Positions 24,648-32,134 of a stretch of 64,000 bases of DNA are shown piece after piece (the first letter of the stretch is position 1; each line of letters starts with the position of its first letter). A program made the position numbers and the translations under genes. Source of the DNA: Chloroflexota bacterium (GTDB taxonomy: Bacteria > Chloroflexota > Dehalococcoidia > Lucifugimonadales > UBA3495); assembly GCA_009837355.1 (NCBI GenBank), contig VXTR01000089.1, positions 1-64,000 on the forward strand. Direction: 5' to 3'. The notes beneath the pieces were generated by a model that searched no databases, was not told the DNA's origin, and saw nothing but the letters and a program-made list of their open reading frames with translations.

Positions 24648-24728
24648 ATCCTTAGCCAGCCGGAGCGCGCTTGTCACTTGCCGGCTTTGGCGTACCCAAA
24701 TGACACCTGCTGTTGGAGGCTGACTGAA

Positions 24729-26843
24729 ATGGCCGGTTACCGCAAGCACGAGGCGCAGGAATGGGCCTGGCACACCATCAAGGGCCAGTGGACCACTCTG
24801 GTAACGCCCTTCACTCCCGATAATCGCGTGGACACCGACGGTCTCCGCCGCAACATCCGCCACGTGCAGAGCCTCGGCGTCCGCGGTGGCGGCTGCACTT
24901 GGAACATGGGCGAGTTCTGGAGCCTCACGGAAGCCGAGCGCCGCCTGGTCATGGACACCGTGGCCGACGAAGCCGCCGGCCGCTGGCTCATCGGCGCCCA
25001 CGTTACCGACACCTCCCTCCTGGAGAGCATCGCGCTGGCGAATCATGCCCAGCAGCGCGGCTTTGACCTGCTCATCATCGCCCCGTCCTACATGGTAACC
25101 AAGACCGAAGACCAGGTAGTCGAGTTCGTCCGTCAGGTTGCCGAAACCACCGACCTGGCGATGATGTTCTACAACTCCCCGCAGTTCGGCATCACCATCA
25201 GCCCCCAGGGCCTCAAGCGTCTCTGCGCCATTCCCAACGTGGTCGGCGTCAAGGAAGCCAGCTTCAACCAGCAGATTTCCATCGAAACCCACCTGCTGGT
25301 CGGCCGCGACGCCATCATCAGCACCCCCGACGAATGGATTTTCCACAAGGCCAAAGAGTTGGGCTTCCATCAGCAGGTGATGTTCGCCAACACCTCCGAC
25401 TGGCGCTTCGACACCCCGTTGCACAACTACTACACCCAGTTCATCGACCGCGCCACCGCCGGCGACCACGACGTGGAGTTTTACAACCGCCACCTCAAGG
25501 ACATCAAGGCACTGTCCGACAAGTGGTGGGGCGGCACCATGAAGAAAACCGGCGGCGCCCTGCCTGTGTCCATGTGCAAGGCCTGGGGCGAGATGATGGG
25601 CATGGCCGGCGGCAGCGTCCGCGCTCCGTTGACCGACCTCACCGACGAGGAAAAGATGGGACTCTGGCGTGAGCTGGAGCCACTGCTCCCCCGCGCAGCC
25701 GCTTCTCCCGAACCGCAACGCGAGGTCATCCACGGTCGTCCCCACGCGCCCTGGCTCAACGGGGAACTGCAGCCCGGTCGCCATCTGGACCTGGGCGGTT
25801 CCGGCATGATGCTCTTGGTCAGCGCTCAAAACAAGGCCGAGGCCCTGGAAGCCGACCGGGGCGGCGCCGACATCATCGACCTGAAAAACCTGCAAGAGGC
25901 CCTGGTGGGTTCGGCCCATCCCAAGCTGGTCAAGGAAGTGCGGGAGATTATTCCTGCTCACAAGCACGTCAGCGTCACCCTCGGCGTCGTTCCCAACCAG
26001 CCCGGCACCGTCGCCATGGCCGTGCACGCCGCCACGATGATGGACGCCACCTCGGTCAAGGTCGGCTTCCAGGTTGCCGACTACGACACCGCCGTAGAAG
26101 TGCTCCGCGAGTCCCGCGCCGCCATCGGCGACGCCGATACCAAGCTCATCGGCTCCCTCTTCGCCGACAACTTCCTCTTTGAGGGCGGCCTTGACCCTCA
26201 CCTGATGGTGCAGTTGGCCAAGGATGGTGAATGCGACGGGTTCCTCATTGACACCCTCACCAAGGACGGGCGCAACCTGTTCGACTTTATGCCCGAACCC
26301 GTCCTCCGCGATATGGTGATGGAGGCCAAGGCGGCCGGCCTGAGCACCGCCCTCAGCGGCCATCTCAAGCTGGAAAACCTGGACGAGCTGGCTCGCATCA
26401 ACCCCGACATCGTCGGAGTCCGCGGCGCTGTTTGCTCCACCGGCGACCGGGACCGCGCCGTGGCGTGGGAAGCCGTCGCCTACTTCAAGGAACAGTTAGA
26501 CCTGCGCAAGAGCGGCCAGATTGACGTGCGCGCCCCCGTCGGCGTAGCGCCAGGCGGCAATGGCAACGGCCATGCCAACGGAAACGGCAATGGCCACCAG
26601 GACGGCAGCGGCTGGACCGTCATCGACGGGCGCGGCAAGAACTGCGCCGGCGTCATCGCCGCCCTCAGCCGCCAGATGGAGTACGACCGCACCTCCTTCA
26701 TCGAGGCCATCCTCCACGACGCCCTCAACATCTACGACGTCATCTACTGGACGGAACAGGCCGGCCACAAGCTGCTCACCCAGCGCAAGGAAAACGACGG
26801 CACCCTCCGCGTCCTCATCCAACCCTTCGGCAACGGCAGATAG
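24729..26843 (+). CDS. three-domain fusion: DapA-like aldolase, MfnB-like furan synthase, TusA-like carrier
   Basis: A 704-residue protein with three enzyme-like parts. Residues 1-310 are a DapA-superfamily barrel, with Schiff-base Lys175 in V-V-G-V-K-E-A and Tyr148 in M-F-Y-N-S. Residues 360-595 match (5-formylfuran-3-yl)methyl phosphate synthase, which condenses two glyceraldehyde-3-phosphates for methanofuran. Shared motifs are G-A-D-I-I-D-L-K-N (Lys386), S-V-K-V-G (Lys444), I-D-T-L-T-K-D-G (Asp508, Lys512) and D-I-V-G-V-R-G-A. A Gly/Asn/His linker leads to a TusA-like domain (628-704) with Cys639 in D-G-R-G-K-N-C-A-G. Lys386 and Lys444 are 58 apart, as are Lys27 and Lys85 of the Methanocaldococcus enzyme. 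GGAGG lies 9 bases before the ATG. The product is unknown; a furan or sulfur-bearing metabolite is inferred. Confidence 0.85.
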   Translation: MAGYRKHEAQEWAWHTIKGQWTTLVTPFTPDNRVDTDGLRRNIRHVQSLGVRGGGCTWNMGEFWSLTEAERRLVMDTVADEAAGRWLIGAHVTDTSLLESIALANHAQQRGFDLLIIAPSYMVTKTEDQVVEFVRQVAETTDLAMMFYNSPQFGITISPQGLKRLCAIPNVVGVKEASFNQQISIETHLLVGRDAIISTPDEWIFHKAKELGFHQQVMFANTSDWRFDTPLHNYYTQFIDRATAGDHDVEFYNRHLKDIKALSDKWWGGTMKKTGGALPVSMCKAWGEMMGMAGGSVRAPLTDLTDEEKMGLWRELEPLLPRAAASPEPQREVIHGRPHAPWLNGELQPGRHLDLGGSGMMLLVSAQNKAEALEADRGGADIIDLKNLQEALVGSAHPKLVKEVREIIPAHKHVSVTLGVVPNQPGTVAMAVHAATMMDATSVKVGFQVADYDTAVEVLRESRAAIGDADTKLIGSLFADNFLFEGGLDPHLMVQLAKDGECDGFLIDTLTKDGRNLFDFMPEPVLRDMVMEAKAAGLSTALSGHLKLENLDELARINPDIVGVRGAVCSTGDRDRAVAWEAVAYFKEQLDLRKSGQIDVRAPVGVAPGGNGNGHANGNGNGHQDGSGWTVIDGRGKNCAGVIAALSRQMEYDRTSFIEAILHDALNIYDVIYWTEQAGHKLLTQRKENDGTLRVLIQPFGNGR

Positions 26844-26867: not shown

Positions 26868-26890
26868 GGGGCGGACTTTATGTCGGCCCC
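26868..26890 (+). repeat. GC-rich hairpin, terminator-like, after the fusion gene
   Basis: GGGGCGGAC (26868-26876) pairs with GTCGGCCCC (26882-26890) with one mismatch around a TTTAT loop, followed by the T-rich TTGTGTTT. It probably ends the fusion-gene transcript. The ATG at 26880 lies inside it, which argues against that start for the next gene. Confidence 0.6.
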
Positions 26891-26921
26891 TTGTGTTTGG
26901 GTTGGCGCTTCGGGCAAGGAT

Positions 26922-28226
26922 ATGATGAGCACGCTAAAGAACTCGAAAGAGTGGTATGAGGTTTTGCAGCCGTTGCTTTCCTGCGAAGTTGCGGCGGCTA
27001 ACCAGGACACCCCACCGGCCTGGTGCCATGACCTGGCCCGTCTGGAAGAACTGCTGGCCGAGCGCAAAGATGGTATCGACGCGTTCGACTTCATCAGTCG
27101 CCTCTATTCTGGCTCGGGTGTCCCCTGGCTGTGGAGCTCCGAGGAGTTTCACTCCAACCTACTGGCGTGGCTGCTTGATCCGAATGAAAATCACGGACTA
27201 GGCGACCGCTTCCTTAAGGGCTTCCTGTCAAAAACCTGCGCGCCTTCCGAAGTCCAGTCAGCCGACTGGTCCCAGGCCACCGTGATACGGGAGTGGGAGA
27301 ACTATGTTGGCGGCCAGTTGGGTTATCTGGACATCCTGGTTTTGAATGAAGCGAGACAATGCCTCCTGGCCATCGAGAACAAAATCTTCTCTTCAGAACA
27401 AGGCCAGCAATTGACCAGGTACCGGAGCGCCTTGGCAAACCAGTACGACGAATTACAGCGGCATCAAGTGTTCCTGAGTCCTGCCCCGACGCAGCCAGAG
27501 TCGGCAGATGAGCGCAAGCACTGGCAGGCGGCAGGTTACGCCGTAGTGTTGGACGTGCTGAAAGAACTGACTGACCGTCAAAACGGCGAAATAGCAGAAG
27601 ACGTCCGAGCGTTCCTGATGCAGTACGCCACCACACTGAGGAGAAACATCGTGCCGGATTCCAGCGCTCAGAAAACGGCCCGTAAAGTTTATCTCGCCAA
27701 CCGGGAACTATTCGAGACCATTTTGGCCAGCAGGCCGGACTACCGTCTGGAACTGTGGAAGATCCTGAAAGCGGCCGTGGGATCGCGGGAGGACATGGAG
27801 GTTGTCGCATCGGCGTCCGGCTGGGTCGCATTCGTGCCTAAGCAGTGGTTGGAAGTGGAAGCGCAGGGAACTTCAAGCTTCCCGGACCTTCCTCTGGCGA
27901 CGTTCCACTTCATCATGTCGAATGACAACGCTTATCTCAATTTCGGCTTGTATGGGGGCGATGAGAATGTAAGAGAGAAAATAGCTGCGGCTATCAAAGA
28001 AAGCCACGGGGAATTTGGTAGACCCAGTACGCCTTTGAACACGGGTTGGACTAACTTTCACCGCAGCGACTACATCCTTGACGGTTCCCACTACAGCAGT
28101 TGGGATGAGAAGGAAACACGGGTTCGTATAAATCGCAAAGTGGCTTGTCTCATTGAAAAAGACGTTCGCAGGATCACCAACTTCATCGCGCAGAACGTCC
28201 CGGAGTACAAGCCAAAACAGGTTTGA
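26922..28226 (+). CDS. PD-(D/E)XK nuclease family protein
   Basis: A 434-residue protein with a PD-(D/E)XK core: Asp137 in G-Y-L-D-I-L-V and Glu152/Lys154 in A-I-E-N-K-I-F, followed by the helix Q-G-Q-Q-L-T-R-Y. This matches the PDDEXK_4 type of restriction-like nucleases. The start is taken at ATG 26922 (26925 is equally possible) because the ATG at 26880 falls in the preceding hairpin. The C-terminal half (after about 250) has no match that I know. The codons are less GC-biased than in flanking genes, and the gene stands alone between a terminator-like hairpin and a new promoter, so it looks inserted. A defence or repair role is possible, but no partner gene is present. Confidence 0.75.
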   Translation: MMSTLKNSKEWYEVLQPLLSCEVAAANQDTPPAWCHDLARLEELLAERKDGIDAFDFISRLYSGSGVPWLWSSEEFHSNLLAWLLDPNENHGLGDRFLKGFLSKTCAPSEVQSADWSQATVIREWENYVGGQLGYLDILVLNEARQCLLAIENKIFSSEQGQQLTRYRSALANQYDELQRHQVFLSPAPTQPESADERKHWQAAGYAVVLDVLKELTDRQNGEIAEDVRAFLMQYATTLRRNIVPDSSAQKTARKVYLANRELFETILASRPDYRLELWKILKAAVGSREDMEVVASASGWVAFVPKQWLEVEAQGTSSFPDLPLATFHFIMSNDNAYLNFGLYGGDENVREKIAAAIKESHGEFGRPSTPLNTGWTNFHRSDYILDGSHYSSWDEKETRVRINRKVACLIEKDVRRITNFIAQNVPEYKPKQV

Positions 28227-28252
28227 CCCGGCAATCCAGCCGCCCCTATAAT
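28223..28252 (+). promoter_or_regulatory. promoter of the molybdenum hydroxylase operon
   Basis: TTGACC (28223-28228), an 18-base spacer, TATAAT (28247-28252). It overlaps the end of the nuclease gene; the leader to ATG 28337 is about 78 bases. Confidence 0.6.
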
Positions 28253-28336
28253 CCAACCCGTCCGGCGCATCGGGGTCGCCGTCCGCCACTACCCGGCTGG
28301 CCCCATCACCTATCGCGCCGGAGCTGGAGGGCTGGT

Positions 28337-29254
28337 ATGGCTCGTTTTGACTATTTGGAGCCGCACTCGCTGGACGAGGCGCTCCAAATGCTGGCCGACC
28401 GTGGCGACCAAGCGCGCTTGGTCGCCGGCAGCACCGACTTTCTGGTCCGCTGGCGTACCGGCGTATGGCGTCCCGAGTCCGTCGTCTGTATGCAGCACGT
28501 CCCAGGATTGGACTACATCCGTTGGAACCCCGACGACGGCCTCGCTATCGGCGCCATGGCCACCGTGCAGGACATCGAGCAGAACGCCGACGTGCGCCGC
28601 CATTACCCCGCGCTGGCTGCCGGCGCGACCGCTTTCGCTGGCGTGCAGGTGCGCAATCTGGCCACCGTCGCCGGCAACGTCTGCAACGCATCCCCCGCCG
28701 GCGACACCCTGCCCGCGTTGCTGGCCTGTAATGCCCAATGCCTTATCGTCAGCTCCACCGGCCAACGCTGGTTGCCGCTGGACGAGCTGTTCGTTGGTCC
28801 CGGCCAGACGGCTCTGAACCCCGGCGAAATCCTGTCCGAACTGCGCCTGCCCACGCCTGCGCCAAACACCGGCGGGCTGTACGTCAAGCACAGTCCTCGC
28901 GGCGCAATGGACATATCGGCGGTCGGCGCAGCCTCCGTAGTCAGCCTGTCCGACGACGGCAGTTGCTCCAGCGTCCGCATCGCCCTGGGTGCCGTCGCTC
29001 CCACGCCGATACGGGCTTACGGGGCAGAGGGCCGTCTGGTCGGCCAGCAGCCCACTGCCGCCAACCTGGCGGAAGCCGCCCGCCTGTCCGCGCAATCCTG
29101 CAATCCCATCGCGGACGTGCGCAGCGGCGCCGACTATCGCCGCGAGATTGCCCGCGTCCTGACCGAGCGAACGCTGCGCCACGCCGTTGCCACCGCCGGC
29201 AACGCGCCCGACTTTGCCGACATCCGACGCCTGGCCGTCCAAACCGCTTGGTGA
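28337..29254 (+). CDS. molybdenum hydroxylase FAD subunit (CoxM/XdhB type)
   Basis: A 305-residue FAD-binding subunit of a xanthine dehydrogenase/CO dehydrogenase-family enzyme. FAD motifs are V-A-G-S-T-D-F-L-V near residue 33 and T-V-A-G-N-V-C-N-A-S-P-A-G-D near residue 110, followed by the CO_deh_flav_C domain. It relays electrons from the iron-sulfur subunit to the acceptor. GGAGGG lies 5 bases before the ATG, which decides the start. The gene order FAD, FeS, Mo is that of the cox operon. Confidence 0.9.
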   Translation: MARFDYLEPHSLDEALQMLADRGDQARLVAGSTDFLVRWRTGVWRPESVVCMQHVPGLDYIRWNPDDGLAIGAMATVQDIEQNADVRRHYPALAAGATAFAGVQVRNLATVAGNVCNASPAGDTLPALLACNAQCLIVSSTGQRWLPLDELFVGPGQTALNPGEILSELRLPTPAPNTGGLYVKHSPRGAMDISAVGAASVVSLSDDGSCSSVRIALGAVAPTPIRAYGAEGRLVGQQPTAANLAEAARLSAQSCNPIADVRSGADYRREIARVLTERTLRHAVATAGNAPDFADIRRLAVQTAW

Positions 29255-29260
29255 TCGCAT

Positions 29261-29288
29261 CGTCATTCCGGCGAAAGCCGGAATCCAG
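29261..29288. repeat. dispersed palindromic repeat, best copy
   Basis: ATTCCGGC (29265-29272) pairs with GCCGGAAT (29277-29284) around a GAAA loop, then CCAG. It lies between the FAD and FeS subunit genes. Related copies are at 16692 and 51612. Confidence 0.75.
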
Positions 29289-29309
29289 AAATGAATCGAG
29301 GTTGCCATA

Positions 29310-29786
29310 ATGAAACAACCCTTGACCCTCAACATCAACGGCGAATCCCGCCTGATGTTGGTGGAACCATACTACTCCCTCCTCGATTGCCTCCGGGATG
29401 ACGCCCGGCTCACCGGCTCCAAAAAAGGCTGCGACGAGGGCGACTGCGGCGCCTGTACCGTTCTGATGGATGGCAAGCCCGTAACCTCATGCCTCGTCCT
29501 CGCGCACAGCGCCCATGACGCCGAGATAACCACCATTGAAGGTTTGGCCGACGTTGATCAACTCAACCCCGTGCAGCGCGCATTCGTGGAACACGGCGGC
29601 CTGCAGTGCGGCTTCTGCATCCCCGGCTTGATAATGTCCGCCACCGGATTCCTGCAGCAGAATCCCGATCCCACCGAGGAAGACGTCCGGTTCGCCATCG
29701 GCGGCAACCTCTGCCGCTGCACCGGCTACGCCCGCGTTGTCGAGGCGATCATGGCCGCTGCCGAAGAAATGCGCCAATCCGCCTGA
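29310..29786 (+). CDS. molybdenum hydroxylase [2Fe-2S] subunit (CoxS/XdhC type)
   Basis: A 158-residue subunit with two [2Fe-2S] clusters. The plant-ferredoxin-type cluster uses Cys41, Cys46 and Cys49 (G-C-D-E-G-D-C-G-A-C-T-V) with Cys61. The second, helical cluster uses C-G-F-C and C-R-C-T-G-Y near residues 100-135. It passes electrons from the molybdenum site to FAD. Length and spacing are normal for the family. Confidence 0.93.
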   Translation: MKQPLTLNINGESRLMLVEPYYSLLDCLRDDARLTGSKKGCDEGDCGACTVLMDGKPVTSCLVLAHSAHDAEITTIEGLADVDQLNPVQRAFVEHGGLQCGFCIPGLIMSATGFLQQNPDPTEEDVRFAIGGNLCRCTGYARVVEAIMAAAEEMRQSA

Positions 29787-29797
29787 TGCGCCCGTAG

Positions 29798-29834
29798 CCC
29801 ACTCTCCTTTGATGGGAGAAGGTTGGGGTGAGGG
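29798..29834 (-). repeat. dispersed repeat, second family, first copy
   Basis: Reverse-oriented copy of a CCCTCACCCC-type element with an internal hairpin (CTCTCC/GGGAGA region). It lies between the FeS and Mo subunit genes. The other copy is at 52327-52364 in the opposite orientation. Confidence 0.7.
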
Positions 29835-29857
29835 TGATACCTATACGGAGGCAACCG

Positions 29858-32134
29858 ATGACCACCGAGTTCAAAGTCCTGGAACAAAACCATCCCCGCG
29901 TGGACGCCTATGAAAAGGTAACCGGGCGCGCCACCTACGCATCGGACGTGTACCTCCCCGGTATGCTGGCCTGCAAACTGCTGCCCAGCGCCCGCAACCA
30001 CGCTCGCATCGTCAGCATTGACACCACCCAGGCTGCCGCGCTGCCCGGCGTCCGCGCCGTCATCACCGGCGCCGATTTCCCCGACGTGCGCTTCGGCTCC
30101 GGCGCCCTCCGCGACCGCTACGTGATGCCGCGCGAGGTAGTCAACTTCGTGGGCGAACCCATCGCCGCCGTCGCCGCCGATGACGAAGCCACTGCCGAAG
30201 AGGCCGTTGAACTCATCAAGGTTGAGTACGAAGACATCCCGTCGGTGGTCAACCCGCTGGCAGCAATGGTGGACGGCGCGGCATCAGTGCATCCTGACCT
30301 GGAAGACTATGAAGGCTATGGCTTCACCATGGGCCACAACGTCAGCACTCTGCTGGACGCCGACCGCGGCGACGTTGAGCAAGCCTTCCGCGACGCCGAC
30401 GTTGTCGTTGAAGACGTGTACCGCTCCCAGGGCATCAATCAAGGCTTCCTGGAACCCATGGCTTGCGTCGCCGACGTTGAACCCGGCGGCCGGCTGGTGA
30501 TTTACGCCTCCACCCAGGGCCCTTACCCGGTGCGCGCTTCCTTGGCTGCGGTGCTGGAAATGCCCGTTTCCCGCGTCCGCATCGTGCCAATGGAGTTGGG
30601 CGGAGGATTCGGCGCGAAACTCCGCCTCGCCTTTGAAGCCTTCCCTGCGCTGCTGGCCATGCGCACCGGACGCCCGGTCAAGTTGGTCAACACTCGCGAA
30701 GAAGTCTTCACCATGAACGGCCCGCGCCTGCCGGTTACCAACTACATCCGCTCTGGCGTGATGAAGGACGGCACGATAACGGCGCGGGAAGCCTACACCA
30801 TCTTTGACGTCGGCGCCTACCTGGGCGCTGGCCCCAACTCCGGCATCGGCCACGGCATCGGCGCCTACCGCATCCCAAACTTCCGGCTCCGTTCCTACGG
30901 GGTCTATACCAACAAGATATATGTCGGTTCCTACCGGGCCTCCGGCGTCGCCGATATGACCTTCGCCGTCGAGTCCCACATGGACCACATCGCCCACGAA
31001 ATCGGCGTTGACCCCTACGAACTGCGCTTGCAGAACGCCCTGCGCGAGGGCGACGTGTCGGTCAGCGGCGCAGTCGTCCCCGGCAACGGCCTCATCGAAA
31101 CCCTGGAAGCCGTGAAAGAACGGATTGACTGGCCCCGTGAATTGGAAGACGGGCACGGCATCGGCCTGGCCCTGTGCGAGTGGCGCAGCGGCAGCGGCCC
31201 GTCCACCGCCGCCATCAGCGTCAACGACGACGGCACCGTGAGCCTTCTCACCGGCTCGGTGGACATCTCCGGCAGCGATACGTCCCTGGCCGCCATCGCC
31301 GCCGAAGCCCTGGGCATCCCCATGGAGAAAGTCATCGTCGCCAAGCGTGATACCGACTTGGCCCCGTACACCGGGCAGTCCGGCGGCAGCCGTATCGTGT
31401 ACAGCCAGGGCACGGCAGTGCAGCGCGCCGCCGAGGACACTGTGCAAAAGCTGATGGCCCTGGCCGCCGAGCGCTTGGGCGTACCCGAGGACGCCCTTGG
31501 CTGCGAAGATGGCCGGGTGTACGTGATGGACAACGAACCCCAGGGTCTGACTTTCGCCCAACTTGCCGCCGCCAGCGTAACTTCACGGGGCGGACCCATC
31601 ATCGGCACTGCGTCCCTGTCCAGTATGCCGTACACCCCGGTATTCGCGGCCCAGGCCGCCGAGGTCAAGGTTGACCGCGACACCGGGCAGGTGAAAGTCC
31701 TGCGCTACATCCAGGCCCAGGACGTGGGCGTCGCCATCAACCCCATGGCAGTGGAAGGCCAGTTGGACGGCGGCGTGGTGCAGGGCATCGGCCGCGCCCT
31801 CACCGAAGACCAGCAGTTCGACCCGGACACCGGCGCCGTCCGCAACCCGTCCTTCGCGTCTTACCTGATGCCCCTGGCTATCGACCTGCCCGAGATCGAG
31901 GACGTACTAATCAGGGTACCGGCGGAAGACGGCCCCTTTGGCGCTCGAGCCGTGGCCGAGCCGCCCGGCTTCGGCCCGCCGGCCGCCATCGCCAACGCTG
32001 TGTATGACGCGGTGGGCGTCCGCGTCAAGCAGCTCCCACTTTCCGGCGAGCGCGTGCTGGCCGCCCTCAACGGCGAGTACGACGACATACCCTTTGACGT
32101 TGCCGCCCTGCGACGAGCGGAGGGGATTGGCTAG
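29858..32134 (+). CDS. molybdenum hydroxylase large subunit (CoxL/XdhA family)
   Basis: A 758-residue molybdopterin-binding subunit. It opens with R-V-D-A-Y-E-K-V-T-G-R-A-T-Y-A-S-D, has G-G-G-F-G-A-K near residue 248, and the active-site Glu701 in A-V-A-E-P-P-G-F-G-P-P. The loop where true CO dehydrogenases carry A-Y-R-C-S-F-R here reads S-Y-R-A-S-G, so it is not a form I CO dehydrogenase. The substrate is probably an aldehyde or N-heterocycle hydroxylated next to the ring nitrogen or carbonyl. GGAGG lies 6 bases before ATG 29858. Molybdopterin cytosine dinucleotide maturation genes are not adjacent, though a CoxE-like VWA protein is encoded at 55140. Confidence 0.9.
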   Translation: MTTEFKVLEQNHPRVDAYEKVTGRATYASDVYLPGMLACKLLPSARNHARIVSIDTTQAAALPGVRAVITGADFPDVRFGSGALRDRYVMPREVVNFVGEPIAAVAADDEATAEEAVELIKVEYEDIPSVVNPLAAMVDGAASVHPDLEDYEGYGFTMGHNVSTLLDADRGDVEQAFRDADVVVEDVYRSQGINQGFLEPMACVADVEPGGRLVIYASTQGPYPVRASLAAVLEMPVSRVRIVPMELGGGFGAKLRLAFEAFPALLAMRTGRPVKLVNTREEVFTMNGPRLPVTNYIRSGVMKDGTITAREAYTIFDVGAYLGAGPNSGIGHGIGAYRIPNFRLRSYGVYTNKIYVGSYRASGVADMTFAVESHMDHIAHEIGVDPYELRLQNALREGDVSVSGAVVPGNGLIETLEAVKERIDWPRELEDGHGIGLALCEWRSGSGPSTAAISVNDDGTVSLLTGSVDISGSDTSLAAIAAEALGIPMEKVIVAKRDTDLAPYTGQSGGSRIVYSQGTAVQRAAEDTVQKLMALAAERLGVPEDALGCEDGRVYVMDNEPQGLTFAQLAAASVTSRGGPIIGTASLSSMPYTPVFAAQAAEVKVDRDTGQVKVLRYIQAQDVGVAINPMAVEGQLDGGVVQGIGRALTEDQQFDPDTGAVRNPSFASYLMPLAIDLPEIEDVLIRVPAEDGPFGARAVAEPPGFGPPAAIANAVYDAVGVRVKQLPLSGERVLAALNGEYDDIPFDVAALRRAEGIG

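Follow-up and report, generated by a model that had tools for sequence, protein, structure and literature searches.

The furan-ring-making enzyme MfnB is known mainly from methane-making archaea, and ThiG acting with ThiS provides an example of a Schiff-base barrel and a sulfur-carrier protein that make a heterocycle. MJ1099 (PDB 4U9P and 4RC1) is an MfnB of ~235 aa that stands alone as a single barrel, and the methylotroph enzyme (Orf22) is encoded in clusters together with MfnE, MfnF and H4MPT genes (PMC8141765). The gene described here lies in a window of 64,000 nucleotides, the whole stretch of DNA that was analysed, and encodes a protein of 704 aa that begins with a DapA-family barrel, continues with an MfnB barrel and ends in a TusA-fold domain behind a Gly/Asn/His linker. 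In comparison with MJ1099, the form found in these SAR202-type Chloroflexota thus carries a TusA-fold tail, is paired with or fused to a DapA-like barrel, and occurs in genomes without FTR or MfnF.

The sequence-only reading had proposed three domains in one intact frame and had named six functional residues (Lys175, Lys386, Lys444, Asp508, Lys512 and Cys639). The frame is indeed a single ORF with Pfam and structure matches for its parts, and all six residues are present in the encoded protein (Table 1). A frame error joining separate genes, or an artefact of metagenome assembly, was rejected because ~30 intact fused homologues with 66–94% identity exist in separate assemblies. The fusion is a real, conserved and unusual feature. 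The AF2 pTM of the whole protein is only 0.49, and the contacts between the domains are not fixed by the model.

Table 1 Features of the fusion gene and its product (window coordinates).
Feature	Position	Strand	Basis or remark
Whole gene	24729..26843	+	One open frame, ATG 24729, stop 26841-26843, 704 aa plus stop
Shine-Dalgarno-like GGAGG	24715..24719	+	Good ribosome-binding site, 9 bases 5' of ATG
DapA/NanA-family class I aldolase-like barrel, residues 1-320	24729..25688	+	PF00701 5.5e-30; PDB profile; Foldseek; alignment with the genome's own DapA
Lys175 codon (predicted Schiff-base lysine)	25251..25253	+	Alignment
4-HFC-P synthase (MfnB) barrel, residues 360-595	25806..26513	+	PF04476 3.3e-55; MJ1099 profile 2.4e-52; Foldseek rank 1
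Lys386 codon (= MJ1099 Lys27, Schiff base)	25884..25886	+	Alignment
Lys444 codon (= MJ1099 Lys85)	26058..26060	+	Alignment
Asp508 codon (= MJ1099 Asp151)	26250..26252	+	Alignment
Lys512 codon (= MJ1099 Lys155)	26262..26264	+	Alignment
Low-complexity Gly/Asn/His linker, residues 597-627	26517..26609	+	Length variable among homologues; pLDDT mostly <50
TusA-fold domain, residues 628-704 (b-a-b-a-b-b)	26610..26840	+	PF01206 0.0013, sub-cut-off; model; VIA
Cys639 codon, invariant, start of helix 1 (TusA active-Cys position)	26643..26645	+	Alignment and model

The central barrel matched the Pfam family 4HFCP_synth (PF04476) over residues 362–584 with 187.8 bits against a cut-off of 22.4, and a profile search against the PDB returned MJ1099 as the sole credible solved relative of the MfnB-TusA half; the profile alignment brings the K386/K444 and D508/K512 motifs into line with their MJ1099 counterparts. 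Foldseek analysis of the predicted full-length model placed MJ1099 at rank 1 (TM 0.94 on the target) and DHDPS structures next. The MfnB part shares the barrel fold with MJ1099, shows ~40% identity to it in the structure alignment, and conserves the equivalents of Lys27, Lys85, Asp151 and Lys155. No other barrel family scored better than MfnB when residues 360–595 were checked, and the earlier assignment of this part and of its active-site residues was confirmed by Pfam, the MJ1099 profile, Foldseek and residue conservation. The score of 197.7 bits was below the NCBIfam equivalog cut-off of 341 bits for (5-formylfuran-3-yl)methyl phosphate synthase; judged by these scores, the MfnB part is a member of the family and not an assured equivalog. 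From triose phosphates, the barrel should form 4-HFC-P or a closely related compound, and this predicted step is well grounded by homology. Retention of Schiff-base chemistry on other substrates, giving a product that is not a furan, would fit the limited identity to MJ1099, the new partner domains and the gap of 198 versus 341 bits; however, all four catalytic residues and their surrounding motifs are retained, and we regard a switch of this kind as quite improbable.

The N-terminal barrel was likewise placed where the sequence-only reading had put it, as an aldolase-like member of the DHDPS/N-acetylneuraminate lyase superfamily with a catalytic Lys175, by Foldseek and by Pfam DHDPS (PF00701, residues 18–312, 104.5 bits against a cut-off of 22.1). 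It shares with the superfamily the fold, the Schiff-base lysine (K175), Tyr148 and the Gly-Glu of the GxxGE motif. It differs in that, by alignment with the genome's own DapA, Thr44/Thr45 of DapA are replaced by Gly/Asn-Met (Met60) and Arg138 by F153, and in having its own C-terminal region with an invariant NTSDWRFD motif. A role as the DapA of lysine synthesis was rejected because a separate true dapA is present elsewhere in the genome (G000:C45) and the Thr pair and Arg138 are gone; the score against TIGR00674 (DapA proper) was also below the cut-off, at 76.6 versus 206.15 bits. The barrel has many invariant aromatic residues (W58, F63, W64, F153, W203, F219, W225, W266, W267 and W286), and an aromatic aldehyde such as a furan could fit a pocket of this composition. 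Benzylidenepyruvate hydratase-aldolases were weighed as models for this part, and none was found among the matches listed.

Archaeal KD(P)G aldolases belong to the DapA family, and the barrel gives a weak generic match to such aldolases. It might accordingly run in the retro-aldol direction, like KDPG/KDG aldolases, and feed glyceraldehyde 3-phosphate to the MfnB barrel, with plain 4-HFC-P released and the TusA-like part serving as a redox, regulatory or docking module. The strict pairing of the two barrels would suit substrate channelling, and the TusA proline is missing. Nevertheless, the threonine with which this family binds the pyruvate carboxylate is replaced by Met60, triose phosphate is plentiful without a dedicated supplier, and the invariant Cys suggests chemistry. 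We consider this arrangement unlikely.

The C-terminal domain was the least secure of the three. Pfam TusA (PF01206) matched residues 631–698 with 19 bits, and the scores against this family ranged from 19 to 24 bits for the window protein and from 29 to 30 bits for some relatives, around a cut-off of 28.6. A profile search of the PDB with the TusA part alone gave no credible match, but structure comparison did: the model of the isolated domain (mean pLDDT 88.9) was matched by VIA to SirA-like 3hz7 (Z 11.4), the YeeD part of 8j4c (11.3) and TusA 3lvj (10.8), with TusA-family chains at Z 10.4–11.4 and other folds (Alba/IF3-like) at Z 9.4 and below. The Foldseek E-values of the isolated domain were weak (2e-3 and up), and the TusA-fold assignment therefore rests on the agreement of sequence family, topology and VIA ranking. 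The domain shares with TusA, SirA-like and YeeD carriers the b-a-b-a-b-b fold and a Cys at the N-terminal end of helix 1. Unlike them, it is joined to a biosynthetic barrel and lacks the CPxP motif: the Cys is retained, Pro is replaced by Ala or Ser, and the window protein reads C-A-G in place of C-P-x-P. Of the TusA-like sulfur carrier proposed earlier, the fold and Cys639 thus stand, whereas the domain is divergent in its motif and in its sub-cut-off Pfam score. The case for a sulfur step is a single conserved Cys, in a domain that has the TusA fold and lacks the canonical CPxP.

The domain could alternatively act as a swinging thiol arm, in which the furan aldehyde or its precursor is shuttled between the barrels as a thiohemiacetal and the product contains no sulfur. 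The flexible Gly/Asn/His tether of variable length and the invariant Cys are consistent with this arrangement, and loss of CPxP might be expected if persulfide chemistry were not needed. We know of no precedent for a TusA fold used in this way, however, and the closest structural matches are to sulfur carriers; such an arm seems to us rather improbable. No other TusA-like sequence with a credible score was found in the window's genome. Elsewhere, TusA-family matches (14–70 of 70) occur in frames of ~510 aa (G022:C1:944404-945280, G078:C83, G090, G063 and G006:C13), several of these loci have a second short TusA-like frame nearby, and they perhaps represent another TusA fusion or a sulfur-transport pair.

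All three parts are well conserved. K175, Y148, K386, K444, D508, K512 and C639 were each conserved at 97% or more in 48 homologous loci, a set that includes a few same or near-identical genomes. Against a 94%-identical relative, dN/dS was 0.04–0.05 for each of the three domains and exceeded this in the linkers; each domain is under strong purifying selection. The unit of DapA-like and MfnB-TusA parts is also retained in genomes down to 1.2 Mb.

A search of 197 genomes from this order of SAR202-type Chloroflexota found the MfnB family in 105, and the named relatives are SAR202-cluster and Dehalococcoidia MAGs. An even sample of the phylum (n = 301 genomes) gave a match in the window's genome only, while 9 of 245 genomes in a class sample matched, 5 of which belong to the window's order. 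The frame around the MfnB match in the order is at least 325 aa, compared with ~235 aa for a lone MfnB, the exceptions being one fragment at a contig edge and one match cut by a contig end. Because the frames are of this length and every MfnB locus read out carries the TusA-like tail, the common unit is an MfnB-TusA gene. Wherever a split locus was read, this gene is immediately preceded by a DapA-like gene in the same orientation; the intergenic distance ranges from -8 to 182 bp and is mostly below 60 bp. Orthologues of the DapA-like part were not found in genomes without MfnB, where the best matches to the fusion were no better than 5e-31, compared with ~1e-110 or better for the orthologues listed. 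Conservation of the unit among SAR202-type bacteria is a point that the sequence-only reading had not seen.

The fused proteins form one clade (100/99) and correspond to one change on the tree. The three-way fusion is probably a derived form of the commoner pair of a DapA-like gene and an MfnB-TusA gene, although, as the tree is unrooted, we can only infer the direction from split to fused. Some fused forms belong to families in which the remaining members are split, or to further families of the class, which suggests transfer of the fused form between lineages. A 65%-identical fusion was seen in a record titled Planctomycetota (L094, JADFOJ010000064.1), reflecting either a mislabelled bin or transfer. 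MfnB relatives on Streptomyces and Azospirillum plasmids match the barrel only, without a TusA tail. The Streptomyces plasmid locus (L103:10001-14263) has a different context, in which MfnB adjoins genes for an aldehyde dehydrogenase, an alcohol dehydrogenase and a methyltransferase; these genes possibly form a small furan pathway outside C1 metabolism.

The genes flanking the fusion are housekeeping genes (RecG, DegV/FakA, prephenate dehydratase, IleRS and Fpg), in contrast to the methylotroph MfnB cluster, so the gene neighbours do not tell the product. Neighbourhood analysis of the fusion and the unit revealed no dedicated pathway genes, only housekeeping genes and a molybdenum hydroxylase, which is a neighbour of the fusion in two genera of the same family, the window's own and one other. 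The hydroxylase genes (28223-32134, + strand; also adjoining the fusion in L057) encode FAD, 2Fe-2S and molybdopterin subunits of CO-dehydrogenase/xanthine-oxidase-like type; the enzyme could oxidise an aldehyde, and its link to the fusion is not kept in most families. Between the fusion and these genes lies a PD-(D/E)XK nuclease-family gene (PDDEXK_4; 26880-28226, + strand), which looks like a recent insertion since it is missing at this site in four relatives (L061, L062, L063 and L057).

In methylotrophs, the furan of a C1 coenzyme is the product of MfnB, there called Orf22 (PMC8141765), and the barrel could in principle serve a methanofuran- or methylofuran-like coenzyme here, as in methanogens and methylotrophs. 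Against this reading, FTR was absent from all 98 genomes searched for it and MfnF from all 59, while both matched in the methanogen controls, and the reading is contradicted; a role in such C1 transfer is thus highly unlikely. Replacement of thiazole synthase by the unit was also rejected. Most genomes with the unit have their own full-length ThiG; in the order sample, 15 of 98 genomes showed weak partial ThiG matches or none, and 12 of these 15 carry the unit, an excess that is not significant (Fisher p 0.09) and that clusters by family.

Our preferred reading, which we hold at a probability of about 0.4, is that the protein carries out several biosynthetic steps in SAR202-type Chloroflexota: it makes a phosphorylated furan aldehyde, elaborates it with its aldolase barrel and uses Cys639 to carry sulfur or an intermediate. 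First, the MfnB barrel would join two triose phosphates through a Schiff base on Lys386 and close the ring, and homology together with the intact catalytic residues suggests a 4-HFC-P-type phosphorylated furan aldehyde as the product. The DapA-like barrel, with Lys175 as its Schiff base, would then perform C-C chemistry on this aldehyde, in the simplest form an aldol condensation with a keto compound, as the strict pairing and the residue changes suggest. The tethered TusA-fold domain may finally bring Cys639 to the barrels with a persulfide sulfur or an intermediate held as a thio-adduct. The end product would be a modified furan, possibly containing sulfur; a furan, a thio-furan compound or a cofactor may be envisaged. 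The MfnB identity, the full catalytic set, the TusA fold with its invariant Cys, the remodelled DapA-like barrel and its strict pairing with MfnB-TusA, the purifying selection on each domain, the retention in small genomes and the absence of FTR and MfnF favour this multi-step reading, whereas the missed CPxP motif and Pfam cut-off, the loss of the pyruvate-binding Thr, the lack of a pathway cluster and the low pTM of the whole model count against it. The ThiG/ThiS system resembles it in idea only, and homology is not claimed. A bolder and doubtful extension is that the protein is a self-contained synthase whose furan-making barrel is supplied with sulfur by the fused carrier domain and with a carbon chain by the fused aldolase; the product would be a metabolite or cofactor not described so far, a furan or thiophene that contains sulfur, and it would be used in much of the SAR202 lineage.

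The little-studied SAR202 bacteria reach very high abundance in sponges and in dark ocean waters, and a large part of what is said of their metabolism has been deduced from genomes. The sequence-only reading knew of no described fusion of this kind, and none was found in the literature on MfnB and SAR202 genomes that was searched, in which the SAR202 papers were covered in small part. Within that literature, the families are known, and the architecture and its lineage distribution are new. The conservation of a unit that would form furan rings for purposes other than C1 metabolism, together with its aldolase and thiol-carrier partners, suggests a metabolite of the lineage that has not been sought before as far as the literature searched shows. 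Cultures of SAR202 strains now exist (PMC10444878), and the nature of this metabolite would be testable in any of them whose genome contains the gene.
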